A DNA stretch of 64,000 nt from Thermodesulfovibrio sp. N1 (lineage in GTDB: Bacteria > Nitrospirota > Thermodesulfovibrionia > Thermodesulfovibrionales > Thermodesulfovibrionaceae): assembly GCF_001707915.1 (NCBI RefSeq), contig NZ_MAVV01000002.1, positions 1 to 64,000 of the forward strand. Direction: 5' to 3'. Shown in pieces: positions 4,929 to 22,960 of this stretch. Numbering within the stretch: the stretch's first letter is position 1; every line of letters begins with the position of its first letter. The notes under the pieces are model-generated. The model did no database searches and was not told the DNA's origin. It saw only the letters and a program-made list of their open reading frames with translations. The position numbers and the translations under genes are program-made.

Positions 4929-4971
4929 AAAATATCTAAATTTATCAACAAAAATATCTAAATTTATCAAC
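4929..4971 (+). repeat. Tandem 21-bp duplication in the IS leader
   Basis: Two copies of AAAATATCTAAATTTATCAAC (22-bp period) lie just upstream of the transposase ribosome-binding site GGAGGT (4975-4980). They may be transposase binding sites or replication slippage within the element. Confidence 0.6.
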
Positions 4972-4986
4972 ATTGGAGGTCAATAT

Positions 4987-5847
4987 ATGAGAAAAACTAT
5001 TCAACCTTCTTTTGCTGACCTTACAATAGCAAATATGATTCCTGCCGATAACCCTCTTAAAATAATCTTTGAAAGCATTGATTTTTCTTTCATCTATGAA
5101 CTTTGCAAAAACAAATACTCTCAGTGTGGAAGACAAGGATTTAATCCTAAAAGCCTCTTTAAAGCCTTGCTCCTTATTTATCTTGGCTATGCTTCTTCTG
5201 AAAGAGAACTTGCAAGAAAACTCAGGTTGACACTTTCGGCTTAGCCTCAGGAAAATGTTTCGCATTTTGATGGTAGACTCTGTTATCTTTGTGAGCTCTA
5301 CCATGGAAACACTCCTAAGCATAACACCTTTCACTACTTTAGAATGAGACTTGGGGAAGAAGTATTTTATGAAATACTTCTTAATCTTATAGCCCAAGCT
5401 GTGTGCCTTGTTAAAAACAAAAATCTTAAGCTTTCCATAGATTCCTCTCATATAGAGGCATTTAATACTGATAAAGATGCTAAGTGGGGATATAAATCTA
5501 AGGATTTTAGCTTTTTTGGTTACAAAGTTCATCTTGAGGTAACTCAAGGAGCATTTCCTATCCCTGTTAGTGTAAAAGTTACAGAGGGTAATAAATGGGA
5601 TGGACATTATCTTGTAGAACTTACAGAGTCTGCTTGTAAACACCTTTCTGATAAAGGAAAAAATATAAAGGCAGTTATAGCAGATGCTGGATATGATAGT
5701 GTAAAGACTGCTAAGTATCTTCTTCAGAAAAACATTACACCAATTATTGCTCAGGGCAAACTGCTTTGTCCTGCAGGAGTTGAACTTTGTTACTGGGGCA
5801 GAAAGCATAAAAGAGGCAGAATTAAATTCCGTTGTAGATTTTACTGA
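4987..5847 (+). pseudogene. Transposase remnant (DUF772-type N-terminus, IS4/IS5-like DDE)
   Basis: The first 85 residues match transposase N-termini (RQGFNPKSLFKALLLIYLGYASSERELARKL). An in-frame TAG at 5242 interrupts the chain and the same frame resumes with YHGNTPKHNTFHYFRMRLGEE. The catalytic region follows: DSSHIEAFN (first Asp) and VIADAGYDS (second Asp). The frame ends at 5847 after WGRKHKRGRIKFRC, before the expected C-terminal Glu region. About 45 bp around the TAG look like extra sequence relative to the family, including a small hairpin (AAAATG-TTTCG-CATTTT). The 342-codon antisense frame is a shadow of this gene. Confidence 0.8.
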
Positions 5848-6004
5848 GCTTATGCAGGTAATAAATTGATTTTTAATTAAAATAAAGATAAAAATCGGGT
5901 GAAATGAAACTTTATGAACTGAAAAATTTTTACTGAAGCCTCTTAAAATTTTTTCAACCAAGTATTTATCCATAAATCTCTCCTGTTATTGAACAGCCTC
6001 TTTG

Positions 6005-9088: not shown

Positions 9089-9150
9089 CCTGTCCTGAAG
9101 GACAGTTTAAAGCCATGAAGGCATAAAAGAAGCTTTCATGGTTTTTTATT
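9089..9150 (+). terminator. Double hairpin (terminator or attenuator, copy A)
   Basis: CTGTCC-TGAA-GGACAG (6 bp) is followed by a longer hairpin pairing AAGCCATGAA with TTTCATGGTT, then a T-run. It lies after the hypothetical gene and immediately before tonB. The second hairpin closely resembles the element at 18089-18152, with a compensating base-pair change, so it may be more than a simple terminator. Confidence 0.65.
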
Positions 9151-9153
9151 TTG

Positions 9154-9817
9154 ATGATTGTTGCAAGTAAAAATAAATTAACAAAATTTTTATTGTTATC
9201 ATTGATGTTTCACTTTTTTATTTTTCTTGCCTGCTCAAGCTTTGCTTTTTTTAACAAAGCAAAATCAGGAATTTGAAGTATTCATTTTTAATGATTCTGT
9301 TTCTTCAAAGGATTTCCATAAAATAGAAAAGAAACATAAATTTAAAAATACAGAGAGGCAATCAAAAATTTCTTTAAAAAATGAAAAAGAAATATCTGTT
9401 TTAAAGAGTGATATTAAAGAAACAAAATTAGAACAGTCTGTTGAAATCAATTTTTCCTCAGATTCATCTGCATCTTCTTCCATTTTTCTTCAGGAAGGTT
9501 CAAAGGAGGGGAAGGGAGAAAAAATAATTGATACGGAGTTTGGTTCAACTTATGGACCCAAATTTATATATCGAGAAATTCCTCAATATCCTCAGATAGC
9601 AAGAAGGCTCGGAAAAGAAGGAAGGGTTGTATTAAGGCTTACTTTAAATGAAAGGGGAGATTTATTAAATATTGAAGTTTTAGAATCAGCTCCGTACGGA
9701 TTTACAGAATCTGCTCTGGAAGCAGTAAAAAAGTCAAAATTTGCACCTGCCCAAAGAGATGGCAAACCAATTGCTTGTAGAGCAATTCTTCCTATAAGAT
9801 TTGTTCTAAAAAATTAA
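9154..9817 (+). CDS. tonB: TonB-family protein with apparent frameshift in or near the membrane anchor
   Basis: The C-terminus (about 90 residues) is a TonB domain: REIPQYPQIARRLGKEGRVVLRLTLNERGDL, LESAPYGFTESALEAVKKSKFAPA, LPIRFVLKN. A hydrophobic anchor typical of TonB (FLLLSLMFHFFIFLA) is encoded from ATG 9154 in a different frame that runs to a stop soon after 9270. The TonB frame by itself would have to start with TTG at 9227 and lack an anchor. Dropping one T from the T7 run at 9246-9252 fuses the frames. TonB transmits proton-motive energy from ExbBD to outer-membrane receptors; no exbBD is in the window. No Shine-Dalgarno sequence precedes 9154. Confidence 0.7.
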
Positions 9818-13819: not shown

Positions 13820-14263
13820 ATGAAAAAACAAAAAATGAGTACATTATTGACCAATTTTTATAACATTTGCGAAAAAAATAAAATAAAAATTACTCCTCAA
13901 AGAATCGAAATATTTAAGGAACTTATAAAAAACAATGACCATCCTTCTGTTACAAAAATTTATCAAAGAGTAAAGAAAAAGTATCCAAATATATCCTTCG
14001 ATACAGTTAATAGAACATTACAAAAATTTGTTGAGATTGGTATTGCAAGGGTTGTTGAAGATTTTGAAGACCTTAGAAGATATGATGGATTGATTGAAAA
14101 TCATCATCATTTTCATTGCATTAAATGTCATAGAATCATTGATATTTATGATGAAAAATTTAAAGAAGTTGAAATCCCAAAGACACTAAGGGATAGATTT
14201 AATATCTTAGAATCAAAAATTGTTTTTACAGGATTATGTGAAAAATGTAAGCCTGATGAATAG
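13820..14263 (+). CDS. Fur-family metal/peroxide regulator (PerR-like by context)
   Basis: This 147-residue protein has a winged-helix N-terminus (ITPQRIEIFKELIKNNDHPSVTKIYQRVKKKYPNISFDTVNRTL) and a metal-binding C-terminus: HHHFHCIKCHRIIDI carries the His and first CxxC, and GLCEKCKPDE the second CxxC. This is the standard Fur fold of 130-150 residues. It sits 58 bp upstream of katG on the same strand, the usual setting for a PerR-type peroxide sensor. Sequence alone does not separate PerR from Fur. The start lacks a Shine-Dalgarno sequence and lies 7 nt after a -10 box. Confidence 0.88.
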   Translation: MKKQKMSTLLTNFYNICEKNKIKITPQRIEIFKELIKNNDHPSVTKIYQRVKKKYPNISFDTVNRTLQKFVEIGIARVVEDFEDLRRYDGLIENHHHFHCIKCHRIIDIYDEKFKEVEIPKTLRDRFNILESKIVFTGLCEKCKPDE

Positions 14264-14275
14264 TTTTATTTGTAT

Positions 14276-14289
14276 TACCCTTAAGGGTA
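14276..14289 (+). promoter_or_regulatory. Perfect palindrome between the Fur-family gene and katG
   Basis: TACCCTTAAGGGTA is a perfect 14-bp palindrome 33 bp upstream of katG. With no real loop and no T-run directly after, an operator or a weak intercistronic hairpin fits better than a terminator. Confidence 0.4.
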
Positions 14290-14318
14290 TTGTTTTAAAA
14301 ATTTTTCGTAGGAGGTAA

Positions 14319-16505
<2,187 letters not shown>

Positions 16506-16642: not shown

Positions 16643-18034
16643 ATGTTAATTAATAGAATTTCCATGATTGAAGCGGGTTCAATATGGCCACACTTATATA
16701 AAAAATTTCCTATTCCCAGATTAGGTGTAGTTCTTCTTGGCACTATACTTAAAAATCACGGCTTTGATGTAAAAATTTTTGTTGAAGACATATCTGAAAT
16801 AAATTGGTCATTTGTGGAATCTTCTGACCTTGTAGGTATTTCAACTATAACTTCTACTGCTCCAAGAGCCTATGCTCTTGCAGATTTAATTAGAAAAAAG
16901 GGTATTCCTGTTATAATGGGTGGAATTCATCCTACTTTTATGCCTGAAGAGGCTCTCCAACATGCTGACTATGTTGTCAGAGGCGAAGCAGACCTTACTT
17001 TTATATCTTTGATAAATTATCTAAGAAAAGGATCTCCCAATATTAATGACATAAAAGGGATTAGTTTTAAGGATTCTTTAGGAAAAATATATCATAACCC
17101 TATACCTGACCTGATCGACAACCTTGATATTCTACCTTCTCCTGATTTTTCTTTATTAAAAGGTTTTAGATCCAATAATATATATCCAATTTCAACATCA
17201 AGAGGATGTCCATTTGATTGTAAATTCTGCTCTGTAATACAAATGTTTGGAAGAAGATACAGATTTAGATCAGTAGAAAAGACTTTGATAGATATAAAAA
17301 TGGCAATTAAATCATCTAATGGCATTATATTTTTTGTAGATGACAATTTTTCAGCTCATAAAGGAAGGACAAAAGATATACTTAAGGGAATGATTGAGGA
17401 AAAGATAAAAGCAAGATGGTCTGCTCAGGTAAGGATTGATGTAGCCAAGGATGAAGAATTACTAAGGCTTATGGCAGAATCAGGATGTAGTACTCTTTAT
17501 GTAGGTTTTGAATCTATAAATCCACAAACACTAAAATACTACAACAAAAAGCAAGATTTAAATGATATTGTTAATTCTATAAAAAATATAAAGAGTGCTG
17601 GTATCCATATTCATGGAATGTTTGTTCTTGGTGCTGATACAGATGATATTGAAACAATAAAAAGGACTGCTGATTTCGCTATTACTAACGGAATAGATAC
17701 AGTTCAATTTATGATACTAACTCCTTTACCAGGAACACCATTCTTTTTTGAGATGCAAGATTCTGGTAGATTAATACACATGGATTGGAGTAGATATGAT
17801 GGACATCATGTTGTATTTAAACCCAAGATGAATATAGAGATGTTGCAAATTGAAACAATCCAAGCAATGAAAAAATTCTATTCATGGAAATATATTATAA
17901 AAAATTTTGTTAATTTAAATTTTTATTATGCATTAATAGGACTTTACGGAAAAATACTGATTAACAAGACTTTAAAAAACATCGGGGAATATTTAGAATC
18001 CATTCATTCTCTATCCTTTGAAAAAACTGTCTAA
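16643..18034 (+). CDS. Cobalamin-binding radical SAM protein
   Basis: This 463-residue protein has a B12-binding fold at 1-150 (RLGVVLLGTILKNHGFDVKIF; VGISTITSTAPRAYALAD; GGIHPTFMPEEAL). The radical SAM cluster is CPFDCKFC at 189-196, and the body continues with IIFFVDDNFSAHKGRTKDIL and GCSTLYVGFESINPQTLKYYNKKQ. Relatives act as B12-dependent methylases or cyclases (BchE-, hopanoid- or lipid-modifying groups). The substrate cannot be read from sequence. The B12 domain lacks an obvious DxHxxG motif, as in several members of this class. It appears to be transcribed alone, ending at the hairpin element at 18089. Confidence 0.85.
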   Translation: MLINRISMIEAGSIWPHLYKKFPIPRLGVVLLGTILKNHGFDVKIFVEDISEINWSFVESSDLVGISTITSTAPRAYALADLIRKKGIPVIMGGIHPTFMPEEALQHADYVVRGEADLTFISLINYLRKGSPNINDIKGISFKDSLGKIYHNPIPDLIDNLDILPSPDFSLLKGFRSNNIYPISTSRGCPFDCKFCSVIQMFGRRYRFRSVEKTLIDIKMAIKSSNGIIFFVDDNFSAHKGRTKDILKGMIEEKIKARWSAQVRIDVAKDEELLRLMAESGCSTLYVGFESINPQTLKYYNKKQDLNDIVNSIKNIKSAGIHIHGMFVLGADTDDIETIKRTADFAITNGIDTVQFMILTPLPGTPFFFEMQDSGRLIHMDWSRYDGHHVVFKPKMNIEMLQIETIQAMKKFYSWKYIIKNFVNLNFYYALIGLYGKILINKTLKNIGEYLESIHSLSFEKTV

Positions 18035-18088
18035 AAAAAATATAAAATTTCATATTGAATTTTTAGTGATCTGTATGATAGAATTTTT

Positions 18089-18152
18089 TCAAGCCACGAA
18101 GGCTTGAAATAGCTCAGAAGAGCTGAATTTTTAAGCTTTCGTGGCTTTTTTA
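18089..18152 (+). promoter_or_regulatory. Branched hairpin with T-run (terminator/attenuator, copy B) before the nickel operon
   Basis: A 15-bp outer stem (AAGCCACGAAGGCTT with AAGCTTTCGTGGCTT, one G-U pair) encloses a 5-bp hairpin AGCTC-AGAA-GAGCT, followed by a run of Ts. The 5' strand can instead fold on itself as AAGCC-ACGAA-GGCTT, which would break the outer stem. This is a plausible switch. It ends about 25 nt before the porin ATG and shares its core with the element at 9109-9147. Confidence 0.6.
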
Positions 18153-18177
18153 TTTTAAAATTTTTTGGAGGTGTTTG

Positions 18178-19284
18178 ATGAAAAAAGCTTTAATTTTATT
18201 GGTTTTTTTAATTTTTCCGAAGTCAGTTTTTTCTGCTGATGTGACCGATTGGCTTTCAGTATCAGGTTCAGCAACTGGAGTTTATCAATGGCTTAACAAA
18301 ACTCAAGGTGATATTGAAAACAAAGACAGAGGTTCTACAGTTATTGATTTTAATGTATCAATCAAACCGATTGAAAATAGTGAAATTTTTTTAAGGGCAA
18401 GTTTTGCAAAGGGAAGTGGTCTTAAAGATATTAATCCTTTTATACTTTCACCAAATGCTGATGATTTATTCAGTGACTTAAAAAACATCAATGGTCATCC
18501 AAGGGATCATCTACTTGAACTATGGTATTCTCACAAGTTTCCAATTGAAAAAGAAATCTTTCTTAAATTTACAGCAGGAATAATTGATTCAACAGCTTTT
18601 ATTGATGACAATATTTATGCAAATGATGAGTTAGGACAGTTTATGAATGAAGCTTTTGTTAACAATCCCCTTGCAAATTTACCAAGTTATGATGCTGGAG
18701 TATCAGTAGAGTTTGAGTGGGATAAAATTCATCTTAGATTAGTAGGGATGCGTTCAAAGAATGATTATGAGAGGAGATTCAACTGGATTGGAGCACAAGT
18801 AGGATATAAACTTGAAACAACCTTAGGAGAGGGAAATTACAGACTTTATGCTTATACAACTAACAAGAGATTTAAAAACTGGGATTCAGATGGATACAAG
18901 AGTTTAAAAGGAATTGGGTTATCCTTTGACCAGCAACTTATAAAGGATACATTGGGAGCATTCTTCCGTGCAGGATTACAGGATGACTCAGCAGTGATTG
19001 ATTATAACAGAATGGTTTCCTTTGGATTTAATCTAAACGGAAGCATATGGGGAAGAAAAGATGATGAAATAGGGATTGGCTATGCTTATTTAAAGTCACC
19101 ACCAAAAAATGATGCTTTTTCAAGAAGTCAGATATTTGAGTCCTATTTGAAGTTTAAGCTTTTTAGCTACAAAGCAATATCCTCTGACATAACCCTTGAT
19201 TATCAATATATACAGGATAAAACTCCTCAAGAAGGTTCAATGGCAGGAAATATATATGGAATTAGATTTAGTCTGAATTTTTAA
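18178..19284 (+). CDS. OprB-like outer-membrane porin, first gene of the nickel-uptake operon
   Basis: This 368-residue protein has a signal peptide (MKKALILLVFLIFPKSVFSA, cleavage after about residue 20) and a beta-barrel pattern ending with aromatic Phe (RFSLNF). The segment FIDDNIYANDELGQFMNEAFVNNP is characteristic of the OprB carbohydrate-porin family. I take ATG 18178 because GGAGG ends six bases upstream. It heads the nik genes, so it is more likely a nickel or nickel-chelate channel than a sugar porin (inference). A remnant of a dispersed palindromic repeat lies in the gap before the next gene. Confidence 0.75.
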   Translation: MKKALILLVFLIFPKSVFSADVTDWLSVSGSATGVYQWLNKTQGDIENKDRGSTVIDFNVSIKPIENSEIFLRASFAKGSGLKDINPFILSPNADDLFSDLKNINGHPRDHLLELWYSHKFPIEKEIFLKFTAGIIDSTAFIDDNIYANDELGQFMNEAFVNNPLANLPSYDAGVSVEFEWDKIHLRLVGMRSKNDYERRFNWIGAQVGYKLETTLGEGNYRLYAYTTNKRFKNWDSDGYKSLKGIGLSFDQQLIKDTLGAFFRAGLQDDSAVIDYNRMVSFGFNLNGSIWGRKDDEIGIGYAYLKSPPKNDAFSRSQIFESYLKFKLFSYKAISSDITLDYQYIQDKTPQEGSMAGNIYGIRFSLNF

Positions 19285-19310
19285 TGGAGGATGGAGCCAT
19301 AGGAAAGAAA

Positions 19311-19343
19311 GAGATTCTTCGGCACTTTTTGCCTCAGAATGAC
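19311..19343. repeat. Half-copy of a dispersed palindromic repeat
   Basis: GAGATTCTTCGG ... CAGAATGAC pairs with itself and matches the arms of the larger copies at 22815-22916 and 61860-61930. It lies inside the nickel operon between the porin and NikK genes. Confidence 0.7.
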
Positions 19344-19363
19344 ATCAAAAAGGAGGTTTGATA

Positions 19364-20134
19364 ATGAAAGGATTTACAAAATTCTTAATTAGTATGGTTT
19401 TTGTATTGTTTCTTGCAACAACCGCTTTTGCTCATTTTGGAGTAATAATGCCTTCTGATGATATTATTGGTGAAAAGGATCAGAAAAAGATTACTTTAAA
19501 AGTTTATTTCATGCATCCCTTTGAGCAGGAATGGCTTAATATGGAAAAACCAAAGGCATTCAGTGTAATGATTGGTGATGAAAAAATCGATCTTTTATCT
19601 ACCCTTATAAATAAAAAAGTAAAAGGAAAAAATACATGGGAAACTCAGTTTACTATAAAACGTCCAGGGGATTATATCTTTTATCTTGAGCCTCAGCCTT
19701 ACTGGGAACCTGCAGAGGAAAAGTTCATAGCTCACTATCCAAAGGTTGTTGTTCAGGCTTTTGGAAAGGAGGAAGGTTGGGATAAAGAAATTGGACTTCC
19801 AATTGAAATAATTCCTCTTACAAGGCCCTATGGATTGTGGGTTGGAAATGTATTTCAGGGAATTGTTAAAATCAATGGAAAACCCTTGCCCTTTGCAGAA
19901 GTTGAAGTAGAGTATTTTAATGAAGGGGGTAAAGTTAAAGCACCAAAAGAGCCTTATATAACACAGGCTATAAAGGCTGATGCAAATGGTGTATTCACTT
20001 ATGCAATTCCTAAGGCTGGATGGTGGGGATTTGCAGCATTAACTGAAGCTTCATATAAAATCAAAAAAGACGGTAAAGAATATCCAGTTGAAATCGGTGG
20101 TATTATATGGGTTAAGGCAAGGGAGATGAAATAA
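19364..20134 (+). CDS. nikK: NikK-like periplasmic DUF4198 protein
   Basis: This 256-residue protein has a clear signal peptide ending TTAFA, so the mature protein would begin with His ([10 protein letters not shown]), a common metal-binding N-terminus. The DUF4198 body has beta-sheet repeats and the segment [28 protein letters not shown]. NikK proteins accompany NikM/L/Q/O nickel transporters and are thought to bind nickel in the periplasm. The start is ATG 19364 with AGGAGG eight bases before; the upstream TTG is weaker. The stop overlaps the NikM ATG by one base (TAATG). Confidence 0.82.
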
Positions 20135-20727
20135 TGCATATATCAGAAGGAGTTCTTTCAGCGCCAGTACTGCTTGCTGGCGCTGTTTTATCTTTAGCTG
20201 GACTTACACTCGGACTTAGAAAAATAAAAAATGAAGATATCCCAAAAGTTGCTGTACTTTCCTCTGCTTTTTTCGTTGCCTCTCTAATTCATATACCAGT
20301 CGGACCAACTTCAGCACATCTTGTTTTAAATGGGCTTGTTGGAATGCTTCTTGGATGGTCAGCCTTTCCAGCAATATTTGTAGGGCTTGTTCTACAGGCT
20401 TTACTTTTTCAATTCGGTGGGCTTACAACTCTTGGCATAAACACCTTTGCAATGTCAATGCCTGCAGTGCTTTCATATTATATTTTCAGAAAAATGCTAA
20501 AAAAAAGCAGAAATATTGCTTTTATTGGTGGAGCTTTTGGAGGAACTTCTGCTGTGCTCATCGGCACTTTATTTATAAGCATGGCTTTAATTGAAACTGA
20601 AAAAAGTTTTTTTGGAGTTGCGATAACTCTTTTTACAATGCATCTTCCAGTTGCTTTGATAGAAGGAATTATCACAGGCTTTGTTGTCCTTTATCTTAAA
20701 AAAGTAAAACCGGAGGCATTGGGATGA
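20134..20727 (+). CDS. nikM: Nickel/cobalt ECF transporter substrate-binding membrane protein (NikM/CbiM)
   Basis: This 197-residue integral membrane protein begins [11 protein letters not shown], the CbiM/NikM N-terminus in which His2 and the amino terminus coordinate the metal. It has HIPVGPTSAHLVLNGLVGMLLGW and FGGLTTLGINTFAM further on and about six membrane helices. The adjacent NikK and NikL genes favour nickel over cobalt. It overlaps its neighbours by 1 bp (NikK) and 4 bp (NikL, ATGA). Confidence 0.92.
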   Translation: MHISEGVLSAPVLLAGAVLSLAGLTLGLRKIKNEDIPKVAVLSSAFFVASLIHIPVGPTSAHLVLNGLVGMLLGWSAFPAIFVGLVLQALLFQFGGLTTLGINTFAMSMPAVLSYYIFRKMLKKSRNIAFIGGAFGGTSAVLIGTLFISMALIETEKSFFGVAITLFTMHLPVALIEGIITGFVVLYLKKVKPEALG

Positions 20728-21296
20728 AAAGAATTATTTTTATGATTATAATTTCTTTTTTTATTTGCACTAATACTTTAGAGGCTCACAAAGTAAGTGC
20801 CTATGCCTATAGAGAAGGAGATAAAGTAGCTGGTGAATGCTATTTTGTTGATGGTTCACCATGTAAAAACTCCATTGTTGCAGTTTATGACAGCAAAGGG
20901 AAAAAGCTCTTACAGACTACTACAGATGAAAAAGGCAAATTTAGTTTTAAAACACAAGAAACAGGAGAGTTAAAAATAGTAATTTCCGCTGGAGAGGGGC
21001 ACACAGCAGAATATAGACTTGAAGCATCAGAAAAGTCAGAAAAAAAGGAAATAAAAAAACAAGAACCTTTTAAAGAAGCTGAGAAAAAGCAAGCTCCTTC
21101 AATAAACAGAGATGAAATGAAACAAATTATTGATGAAGTAATGGATGCAAAGCTTCAAGGAATAAAAAATGAAATATTGGATTTAAGAAAACAGATGGAT
21201 AAAATCAATATAAGAGACATAATTGGAGGAATTGGATACATTTTTGGATTATGGGGATTAATAATGTTAATTAAGAGAAGAAAAAATGCATCTTGA
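20724..21296 (+). CDS. nikL: NikL-like accessory protein of the nickel ECF transporter
   Basis: This 190-residue protein has a signal peptide (FFICTNTLEA) giving a mature N-terminus HKVSAYAYREGDKVAGECYFVDGSP, the NikL pattern. A Lys/Glu-rich linker follows (about 105-135), then a predicted coiled coil (IDEVMDAKLQGIKNEILDLRKQMDKI) and a C-terminal membrane helix (GYIFGLWGLIMLI). It probably stabilises or loads NikM in the periplasm. It overlaps NikM by 4 bp and NikQ by 11 bp. Confidence 0.82.
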   Translation: MKRIIFMIIISFFICTNTLEAHKVSAYAYREGDKVAGECYFVDGSPCKNSIVAVYDSKGKKLLQTTTDEKGKFSFKTQETGELKIVISAGEGHTAEYRLEASEKSEKKEIKKQEPFKEAEKKQAPSINRDEMKQIIDEVMDAKLQGIKNEILDLRKQMDKINIRDIIGGIGYIFGLWGLIMLIKRRKNAS

Positions 21297-22029
21297 AGAG
21301 TTTTCCGAGGGAAACTCTTTTTTACATAAGGCAGACCCAAGGCTAAAAATTATTGTTTTTTCAATATTCAGTATCCTATGCGCTACTGCTCATGGATTGA
21401 AAACACCAGCTTTGTTTTTAATTTATTCTGTCTTTTCTATTTTTATTGCCCATTTAAAATTAAGAAAGCTTTTTTCAAGACTCTTTATTGCAAATTTTTT
21501 TATATTTTTTATCTGGATTTTTTTACCAATAAGTTATCCCGGTAATCCTTACATTGAGCTTTGGCAGATAAAAATCAGCCATGAAGGCTTTATTTATGCT
21601 CTTTCAATAACTATAAAAGCAAATGCAATTATTGTTGCAACAATAACTCTTTTAGGAACATCTTCTGTTAATTCTTTAGCCCATGCAATGCTTCATCTTA
21701 AAGCACCTAAAAAACTTGTAACAGTTTTTTTTCTTTTTTATCGCTATATTACGGTTATTCATGATGAATATTTGAAAATAAAAAGGACTGTCTATGCCCG
21801 TGGTTTTGTCCCAAAATCAAATCTCCACACCTATAGGACATATGCTTACATTGTTGGTGGTATGCTTATAAAAAGCTATGAAAAGGCTGAGGAAATTTAC
21901 AAGGCAATGCTTTGTAGAGGCTTTCAAGGATTTTTTCCCCTCTTTGAGCATTTTCAAACAAGAAAAATTGATATAATATTCAGTGTGTTATCAATTTTTA
22001 TCTTTATTTTATTCTGGTTTAAAACATGA
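21286..22029 (+). CDS. nikQ: ECF transporter transmembrane T-component (NikQ/CbiQ)
   Basis: This 247-residue membrane protein has the T-component N-terminus (SFLHKADPRLKIIVFSIFSI) and the paired ATPase-coupling motif near the C-terminus (KRTVYARGF; then YKAMLCRGFQG, the ARG/CRG coupling helices). Five or so membrane helices are visible. It links NikM to the NikO ATPase. The ATG lies inside the end of nikL. The stop overlaps the NikO start by 4 bp (ATGA). Confidence 0.9.
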   Translation: MHLEEFSEGNSFLHKADPRLKIIVFSIFSILCATAHGLKTPALFLIYSVFSIFIAHLKLRKLFSRLFIANFFIFFIWIFLPISYPGNPYIELWQIKISHEGFIYALSITIKANAIIVATITLLGTSSVNSLAHAMLHLKAPKKLVTVFFLFYRYITVIHDEYLKIKRTVYARGFVPKSNLHTYRTYAYIVGGMLIKSYEKAEEIYKAMLCRGFQGFFPLFEHFQTRKIDIIFSVLSIFIFILFWFKT

Positions 22030-22685
22030 AGAAACCACTTATAAGATTGAACAATATTTATTTTTATTATGATGGCAGAGTTGTCCTAAAAAATCTCAAC
22101 CTTGATATTCATGAAGGAGATAGGGTAGGACTTATGGGACCAAATGGTTCAGGTAAAACAACTCTTTTATACATTATAATGGGACTTTTAAAACCATCAT
22201 CTGGGACTGTTGAGATCTTTGGGAAAATAAGGCAAAAAGAAAAAGATTTTATTGAAGTAAGACAGAAGATAGGATTACTTTTTCAAGATTCAGACAGTCA
22301 GCTTTTCTGTCCCACAGTTAAAGAAGACATAGCCTTCGGTCCTCTTAATCTTGGTAAATCAAAGGAAGAAGCTTTAAATATTGTAAAAGAAACTTGTGAT
22401 ATTTTAGGTTTAAAGGGATTCGAAGACAGAGTTACTTATAAGCTTTCAGGAGGTGAAAAAAAACTTGTGGCACTGGCTACAGTCATTGCAATGAATCCAT
22501 TATGCTATCTCTTAGATGAACCTTCAGCAGGACTTGATGAGAAAACAATAGATAGACTCACTAATTATCTTTTAAATAAAGCTAATACATATCTTGTAGT
22601 TTCCCATGATAAAGAATTTTTATCACGGACAACTCAAAAAATCTATTATATTCAAAATGGAACAATCTCTAAGAGTGTCGAATAG
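22026..22685 (+). CDS. nikO: ECF transporter ATP-binding protein (NikO/CbiO)
   Basis: This 219-residue ABC ATPase has Walker A GPNGSGKTT (about 39-47), Q-loop GLLFQDSDSQLF, signature LSGGEKKLVALATV, Walker B CYLLDEPSAGLD and switch His in VVSHD. It is shorter than usual CbiO (about 270), lacking the C-terminal extension. It is the last gene of the nickel operon; a repeat-bearing intergenic region follows. Confidence 0.92.
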   Translation: MKKPLIRLNNIYFYYDGRVVLKNLNLDIHEGDRVGLMGPNGSGKTTLLYIIMGLLKPSSGTVEIFGKIRQKEKDFIEVRQKIGLLFQDSDSQLFCPTVKEDIAFGPLNLGKSKEEALNIVKETCDILGLKGFEDRVTYKLSGGEKKLVALATVIAMNPLCYLLDEPSAGLDEKTIDRLTNYLLNKANTYLVVSHDKEFLSRTTQKIYYIQNGTISKSVE

Positions 22686-22960
22686 AAAATTCTAATTCTA
22701 TAAAGGGAAATACAAAATTTCATTATTATGACATTTTTATTCTCTCTGAAAGGATTGTTAAATTTGTAATTTAGAATTTTCACTCAAAATTGCCGATAGA
22801 AAAACACTGATTTTGTCATTCCGAAGGAGCGTAAGCGACTAAGGAATCTCCTCCTTTTTCACCAGATAGATTCTTTAATGAGAGATTCCTCGGGGTATTG
22901 AACCCCTCGGAATGACTGCATAAACGAAATATTGCCTTTATCTCTATCGGCAATTTCAGG
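22685..22960. repeat. Nested inverted-repeat element (MITE-like) between nikO and the MFS gene
   Basis: Outermost are GAAAATTCTAA (22685-22695) and its exact complement (22771-22781). Next, AAATTGCCGATAGA (22787-22800) pairs with TCTATCGGCAATTT (22943-22956). Inside sits a dispersed palindromic repeat at 22815-22916 with arms GTCATTCCGA and TCGGAATGAC and two inner hairpins. No gene is visible. The motif TCTATCGGCAATTTCAGG recurs exactly at 60201-60218. Confidence 0.75.

Follow-up and report, generated by a model that had tools for sequence, protein, structure and literature searches.

A porin-headed nickel-import operon of Thermodesulfovibrio and a probable new family of nickel-responsive leader RNAs

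Described systems and the nickel operon of Thermodesulfovibrio sp. N1

In the available parts of the two papers that describe NikKMLQO nickel transporters of the energy-coupling factor type, delta-proteobacterial nickel operons carry NikR sites (Rodionov 2004, PMC545781; Zhang 2009, PMC2667541), and many genomes that have NikABCDE lack NikR (Zhang 2009, PMC2667541). The first of these also places a porin of the OprB family ahead of feoAB in Geobacter sulfurreducens, under FUR, proposes it for ferrous iron uptake and, in that same available part, makes no mention of porins beside nik genes (Rodionov 2004, PMC545781). The DNA analysed here, hereafter the window, is the stretch of 64,000 nucleotides at positions 1 to 64,000 of contig NZ_MAVV01000002.1 of Thermodesulfovibrio sp. 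N1, and it holds an operon with the same gene content as the described transporters, NikK, NikM, NikL, NikQ and NikO. Unlike them, it is headed by a porin, lacks NikR and has an RNA leader in front; unlike the Geobacter sulfurreducens case, in which an OprB-family porin likewise heads a divalent-metal importer, a near-identical porin, apparently homogenised within the genome, serves both a nik and a feo operon. We consider it probable that this is a nickel-import operon led by an outer-membrane metal-ion porin and placed under a new family of nickel-responsive leader RNA, which would act as a transcription attenuator.

The leader belongs to no family tested, the NiCo and cobalamin riboswitches of Rfam 15 included. 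The cmscan search gave no match at the gathering threshold in the window, and at E up to 10 positions 18000-18250 returned only chance-like matches, far below the gathering scores, as did a stretch of locus L135; at the loci of seven relatives only TPP and tRNA were matched, elsewhere in L131. The NiCo (czcD) riboswitch, which we take to be a metal-linked leader RNA known for efflux genes, is alike in its link to a metal but has no match in the leaders scanned, and the genes here serve uptake. ANTAR-dependent antitermination also involves two hairpins, one of them overlapping a terminator; an ANTAR protein was nevertheless rejected as the regulator, since none of the 16 genus genomes encodes one (2 of 61 relatives do), and the loops differ from the hexaloop rule of that system. 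The open-access literature searched contains no report of the leader, nor of a porin heading nik operons, and plasmid records hold no similar leader DNA.

The six genes, from the porin through NikK, NikM, NikL and NikQ to NikO, lie on one strand in the order and at the places given by the original prediction (Table 1). Its description of them as overlapping or nearly abutting holds for NikK to NikO, where neighbours touch or overlap by at most 11 bases, and is generous for the porin and NikK, which are 79 bases apart. With the genes for NikK, NikM, NikL, a CbiQ-type T component and an ATP-binding cassette (ABC) ATPase all found together, the transporter is a member of NikKMLQO; its cargo would be nickel, judging from the names of the components, from the available part of Zhang 2009 (PMC2667541) and from the exclusion of NikR considered below. 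Sequence resembling a dispersed palindromic repeat is seen downstream of nikO (22815-22925), and an apparent fragment of such sequence lies between the porin gene and nikK (19295-19345).

Table 1. Features of the nik and tonB loci, in window coordinates.
Feature	Position	Strand	Basis
Sigma-70-like promoter TTGAAT-N18-TAGAAT	18055..18084	+	read from sequence
Porin-nik RNA leader: 5' arm GCCACGAAGGC, hairpin GCUC-AGAA-GAGC, 3' arm GCUUUCGUGGC, U-tract (intrinsic terminator shape)	18091..18150	+	
OprB-fold outer-membrane porin	18178..19284	+	Pfam OprB PF04966 (55.3 bits, cut-off 22.9); AlphaFold model; Foldseek
NikK (DUF4198, secreted)	19364..20134	+	Pfam profile match (DUF4198, 1.2e-62)
NikM (CbiM-family substrate-specific subunit)	20134..20727	+	profile matches (CbiM, 1.9e-58)
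NikL	20724..21296	+	NF058648 match (NikL family; 178 bits, cut-off 100)
NikQ (CbiQ-family T component)	21286..22029	+	profile matches (CbiQ TIGR02454; 139 bits, cut-off 111.8)
NikO (ABC ATPase)	22026..22685	+	profile matches (ABC ATPase, 1e-29)
tonB leader, first hairpin CUGUCC-UGAA-GGACAG	9090..9105	+	sequence, fold
tonB leader: GCCAUGAAGGC ... GCUUUCAUGG and U-tract	9110..9147	+	pattern, model match
tonB	9227..9817	+	TonB_C 1.6e-21

Structure and spread of the leader RNA

The leader stands right after a promoter, and its core is made up of the motif GCCAYGAAGGC, a hairpin that covaries, a 3' arm able to pair and a U-tract. Positions 18060-18180 of the window fold at -38.4 kcal/mol (z -5.28), and none of 200 shuffles did as well. 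Within the genome (1.9 Mb), a strict two-arm pattern matches only the nik and tonB leaders and its backward control matches nowhere; a looser pattern adds one further place. The related hairpin that the original prediction had seen before tonB was confirmed at 9110-9147 and is conserved in the genus; the weight then given to the leader was too small, as it proved to be a phylum-wide RNA element.

Across the genus, where a model (R1) built from 11 leaders was used with a loose pattern, the pattern matches in 15 of 16 genomes (backward control, 0/16). Leaders are found before the porin (12 loci), before tonB (13 loci, with tonB confirmed downstream in every one) and in a third class (11 loci), and there is one stray match. 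Nine of the ten genus porin-nik operons with readable upstream sequence carry the leader, as do three porins cut by contig ends downstream; the tenth (L010) has a DUF2325 gene upstream and no leader, and the leader is absent from the genus feo-type loci inspected. Between the end of a -10-like hexamer and the leader GCC there are 6 to 9 bases in 9 of 11 cases by script and in the other two by eye, so that the transcript is expected to start with the 5' arm. Hairpins with NGAA-like ((A)NGAA) loops, two or three in number and variable in order, occur in the nik, tonB and third classes. In ten third-class loci (L090, L091, L104, L080, L081, L082, L083, L093, L105, L107) three NGAA-loop hairpins are followed by a second terminator-like hairpin. 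At the 10 of 11 third-class loci whose downstream genes were inspected, the RNA stands before ubiX-hemH in seven genomes and before an mfd-like gene in three (by Pfam for one of the three), and an RNA that is kept while the gene behind it differs may perhaps be a stand-alone RNA.

The pairing of the arms is corroborated by covariation beyond the genus. A MAFFT alignment of 21 leaders, drawn from two families, has 95.0% of its cells paired and six pairs with changes on both sides, a number reached by 2 of 500 shuffles. It scores 0.288 for covariation, and shuffled alignments score 0.136, none of the 500 being as high; four of the five inner-hairpin pairs have changed on both sides. A further 18 leaders from other orders and families, found with the model yet outside its training, give 90.2% pairing, six pairs changed on both sides (6/500), a covariation score of 0.257 against 0.169 (0/500 as high) and changes in all four inner-hairpin pairs; in additional pair types they do not stand out from the shuffles (51/500). 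AGNA and UGAA predominate in the inner loop, and we take them to be of the (A/U)GNN tetraloop kind. A DNA operator in place of an RNA was rejected, given that the distance between the arms ranges from 25 to 51 bases over the loose-pattern matches and that the inner pairs covary. A leader peptide starting from the AUG of GCCAUGAAGG was likewise discarded, as most nik leaders have ACG there.

The two arms do not behave alike. The 5' arm GCCAYGAAGGC is present in 105 of 112 picked leaders, and the 3' arm takes 50 forms by a crude slice; in family f10 the former arm keeps its A even where the partner base no longer pairs (8/21). Pairing is thus not the only constraint on the 5' arm, as would be expected if it also formed an antiterminator. 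Folding indicates what the further constraint could be: without the 3' arm the leader of the window forms two hairpins, GCC-AYGAA-GGC and a second one (-12.4 kcal/mol), and at full length it forms one long terminator stem (-35.2 kcal/mol). A second switch helix seen by eye in f10, between the 3' arm and the downstream GCCGCGGGAAAGG across the U-tract, was not adopted and is kept as a lead: it has one informative position only, L204 does not fit it, and when L193 is folded together with the sequence that follows it, the minimum-energy structure lacks this helix.

With a second model (R2), the leader is found in 109 of 176 genomes and 55 of 85 genera of the order (E 0.001), and in 99 of 395 genomes and 61 of 170 genera of the phylum (E 0.0001). 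From 220 matches, 112 leaders were picked after mirror-strand matches, repeats of one place in two loci and most matches below 35 bits had been dropped; a first downstream gene was found for 91 of them, and 16 had none in reach. These first genes are CbiM (26), PF13557 (13), PDGLE (12), methyltransferases (9), OprB (8), TonB (6), TonB receptors (5), CbiQ (2) and one each of DUF4198, ExbB and CooT. Among the 73 second genes, a few short ones at contig ends being left out, there are PDGLE (19), CbiM (16), CbiQ (8), ExbB (7), TonB receptors (6), DUF4198 (3) and PF01497 (2). PF13557 outer-membrane proteins whose mature part starts with AHPLITDD stand directly behind the leader, often with CbiM next (L217, L200, L204, L206, L225 and others), and would seem to be another type of outer-membrane channel that takes the place of the porin. 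Methyltransferase genes lie 3' of the leader in L227 (177-3009), L236, L250, L265 and L243, followed in L227 by a long gene of TonB-receptor size; a role in metallophore or metal-chelate handling is possible. Two leader-like elements stand in tandem before one gene in L243, L262, L279, L284, L302 and L304.

Outside the order, a CbiM-type gene comes first at 5 of 16 loci, and at 6 a membrane protein of 237 residues, which matches PF13386 below the cut-off only and which we take for a UreH/NicO-like nickel permease. At two more of these 16 loci, L302 and L304, an OprB porin (7.8e-34 and 1.7e-33) is found behind the leader together with NikK, NikL and NikM. Both porins had already turned up in a search that used protein sequence only, so that their occurrence with the leader is an independent finding.

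The nickel signal and the mode of control

The main ground for nickel as the signal is a pattern of replacement between NikR and the leader. NikR (PF08753) is absent from all 16 genus genomes, and was rejected as the regulator there, the same search being positive in 5 of 14 control genomes. In the order, 36 of 176 genomes encode it: 35 have NikR only, 108 the leader only, 1 both and 32 neither. The leader is thereby present in 1 of 36 genomes with NikR and in 108 of the 140 others (Fisher p 3.7e-17, uncorrected for relatedness), and the single genome with both, G436, has 6% contamination. Leader-only and NikR-only genomes number 1 and 9 in family f2, 9 and 1 in f6, 1 and 11 in f7, and 22 and 2 in f9; f12 has five NikR-only genomes and the one with both.

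We infer the following course of events, from the start site to the flow of metal through the porin. Transcription would start at or beside the leader, and the nascent RNA would first fold into GCC-AYGAA-GGC and a second hairpin with an (A/U)GNA or related loop. The 3' arm, once made, could pair with the whole 5' arm to give the terminator; if something held the 5' arm in its own hairpin, the polymerase would read through. Such read-through at scarce nickel would allow the outer-membrane porin, NikKMLQO and TonB to be made on demand, and the leader would take the part played by NikR elsewhere in the order. The metal ion would then enter the periplasm through the porin, NikK and NikL may help to hand it over, and NikM, NikQ and NikO would import it. 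The sensor may be the RNA itself or a protein that binds its hairpins.

A protein sensor is a serious possibility. In this scheme, a nickel-sensing RNA-binding protein of a non-ANTAR family would grip two hairpins with similar loops, and the third class would be a titrating stand-alone RNA. The recurrence of two or three (A)NGAA-like hairpins in variable order in all three classes is in keeping with it, as is the retention of the third-class RNA while the downstream gene changes. However, no candidate protein was identified, ANTAR is excluded in the genus, and the stand-alone reading rests on 10 loci.

A riboswitch that senses the metal directly is a more doubtful proposition. The hairpins would fold around Ni2+ (or Co2+), and the metal would choose between antiterminator and terminator with no protein involved. 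The near-invariant residues in short hairpins and loops, the complementarity with NikR, which points to nickel, and the lack of an ANTAR-type RNA-binding regulator in 16 genus genomes fit this hypothesis, but the element is very small (about 55 bases), its conserved simple hairpins offer no obvious metal pocket, and no Rfam NiCo match was found among the leaders scanned. It is similarly no better than tentative to suppose an undescribed class of nickel riboswitch that switches uptake on at low nickel, replaces NikR throughout the Nitrospirota and, through the stand-alone genus copy, maybe acts in trans.

That the signal is cobalt or cobalamin in place of nickel seems to us rather unlikely. CbiM-family permeases, TonB receptors and the two PF01497 binding proteins would fit vitamin B12 or cobalt uptake; yet no cobalamin-biosynthesis family appears in the 25 of 30 first-gene families shown or the 23 second-gene families shown, and the NikK and NikL companions, the exclusion of NikR and the CooT gene among the targets speak against this reading. 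It is very unlikely that the hairpins are ordinary intrinsic terminators of upstream genes with no role for the operon: their perfect terminator shape and their place between genes would suit that role, but each of the 11 genus leaders inspected has a promoter immediately 5' of it, the loops and the 5' arm are kept from family to family, the gene company is non-random, and the leader and NikR are complementary.

Several observations weigh against the nickel-responsive attenuator that we favour. In the genus alone, covariation is weak, with one pair changing on both sides and 338 of 500 shuffles scoring as high, and the 18 leaders from elsewhere owe their retrieval to the model. NikR and leader largely follow families, a relatedness that the Fisher value ignores; both kinds occur together only in f2, f6, f7, f9 and f12, the leader of f7 is a weak match (E 0.0009), and almost a fifth of the order genomes (32/176) have neither. 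The count of 8 OprB first genes is partly circular, most of those loci having trained the model, which is not so for the CbiM count, and the methyltransferases (9 of 91 first genes) are not obviously nickel genes. The third class, before ubiX-hemH or the mfd-like gene, also belongs on this side, as do poor matches outside the order, L305 with the look of a plain terminator and L295 and L301 in unclear company.

The porin and the passage of metals across the outer membrane

The porin is of the OprB family by profile, with a score above the cut-off, and by fold, its predicted model being an OprB-like barrel. The AlphaFold model, based on 48 aligned sequences, has a mean predicted local distance difference test score (pLDDT) of 89.8 and a predicted template modelling score (pTM) of 0.85. 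Its best solved match in Foldseek is Pseudomonas putida OprB (4gey; E 7.9e-16, query TM 0.69, 12% identity), with many general porins close behind, and its sequence profile gives a weak OprB match in the PDB (E 0.067). The acidic residues D143, D172, D251 and E321 are unchanged in 48 of 48 sequences. Plasmid records hold relatives of the porin only below 60% identity (5 records). FeoE was rejected as a published name for such a porin, as FeoE is an iron exporter.

The genome has two PF04966 genes, the second in a DUF2325-porin-feoA-feoA-feoB operon on another contig (L005 7955-12016, G000:C6). The two are identical at 1035 of 1067 bases (97% at the DNA level), with a run of about 550 bases without a difference. 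All 16 genus genomes searched encode the porin, at 25 loci: 12 beside nik, 7 beside feo, 3 with DUF2325 only (one of which has a feoA scrap) and 3 without a labelled neighbour in reach. DUF2325 sits 5' of the porin in most genus feo-type loci. In the five species in which both the nik and the feo copy are readable, codon identity between them is 95, 99, 98, 96 and 71%, and it is at most 83% between porin copies of different species; in the four species at 95-99%, the two copies become alike immediately behind the signal peptide. In a sixth genome, a nik contig and a feo contig share one porin tail at their ends, as might be expected if identical copies had been encountered during assembly. These patterns suggest that the porin copies have been homogenised by gene conversion.

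A collection search with the porin alignment gave 80 loci, neighbours being sought within four genes. The nearest labelled neighbour of 79 relatives is nik in 23, feo in 22, cbiM in 2, znu in 2 and none in 30, some of these last being loci cut by contig ends. Thus 49 of 79 have a nik, feo, cbiM or znu gene no more than four genes away, and by our rough estimate a random gene would be so placed in a few percent of cases at most. The original prediction had named the lack of a genomic link between this porin clade and nik genes as part of what would refute it; the association is strong, with 23 of 79 relatives nearest to nik, and crosses phyla. On a tree of 84 porins, from which rows below 300 residues and four loci that were copies of genomes already included had been dropped, at least 17 changes are required for the nik label, taken together with cbi and znu (shuffled mean 25.2), and 18 for the feo label (shuffled mean 21.6, 13 of 500 shuffles as low), and nik and feo alone swap at least 13 times. 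A channel for nickel or a nickel chelate in particular, as first proposed, does not fit a porin of which a homogenised copy heads a feo operon and of which the nik and feo contexts interchange on the tree. Our reading of these comparisons is that the porin may be one metal-ion channel shared by several importers. A sugar porin present in the operon by chance is scarcely credible, notwithstanding the Pfam name and the best structural match to Pseudomonas putida OprB, given the 12% identity to that protein, the homogenised copy in the feo operon and the company of four kinds of metal importer at 49 of 79 loci, which argues against carbohydrate selectivity.

Elsewhere in the window, a Fur-family regulator gene lies directly 5' of a catalase-peroxidase gene (13820-16505), by a look at the sequence a pair of the PerR-katG type, and at 4945-5973 open reading frames overlapping on both strands look like a decayed transposase.

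If the proposed control is true, a leader RNA for nickel uptake would replace NikR in lineages to which no nickel regulator is assigned here. As the leader is short, comes first in the mRNA and brings its own terminator, its response to nickel would be testable in vitro. The finding on the porin bears on a practical matter, the entry of divalent metals through the outer membrane of these anaerobes: that a single channel is homogenised between the nik and feo operons suggests that porosity may be provided on demand, with selectivity left to the inner membrane.

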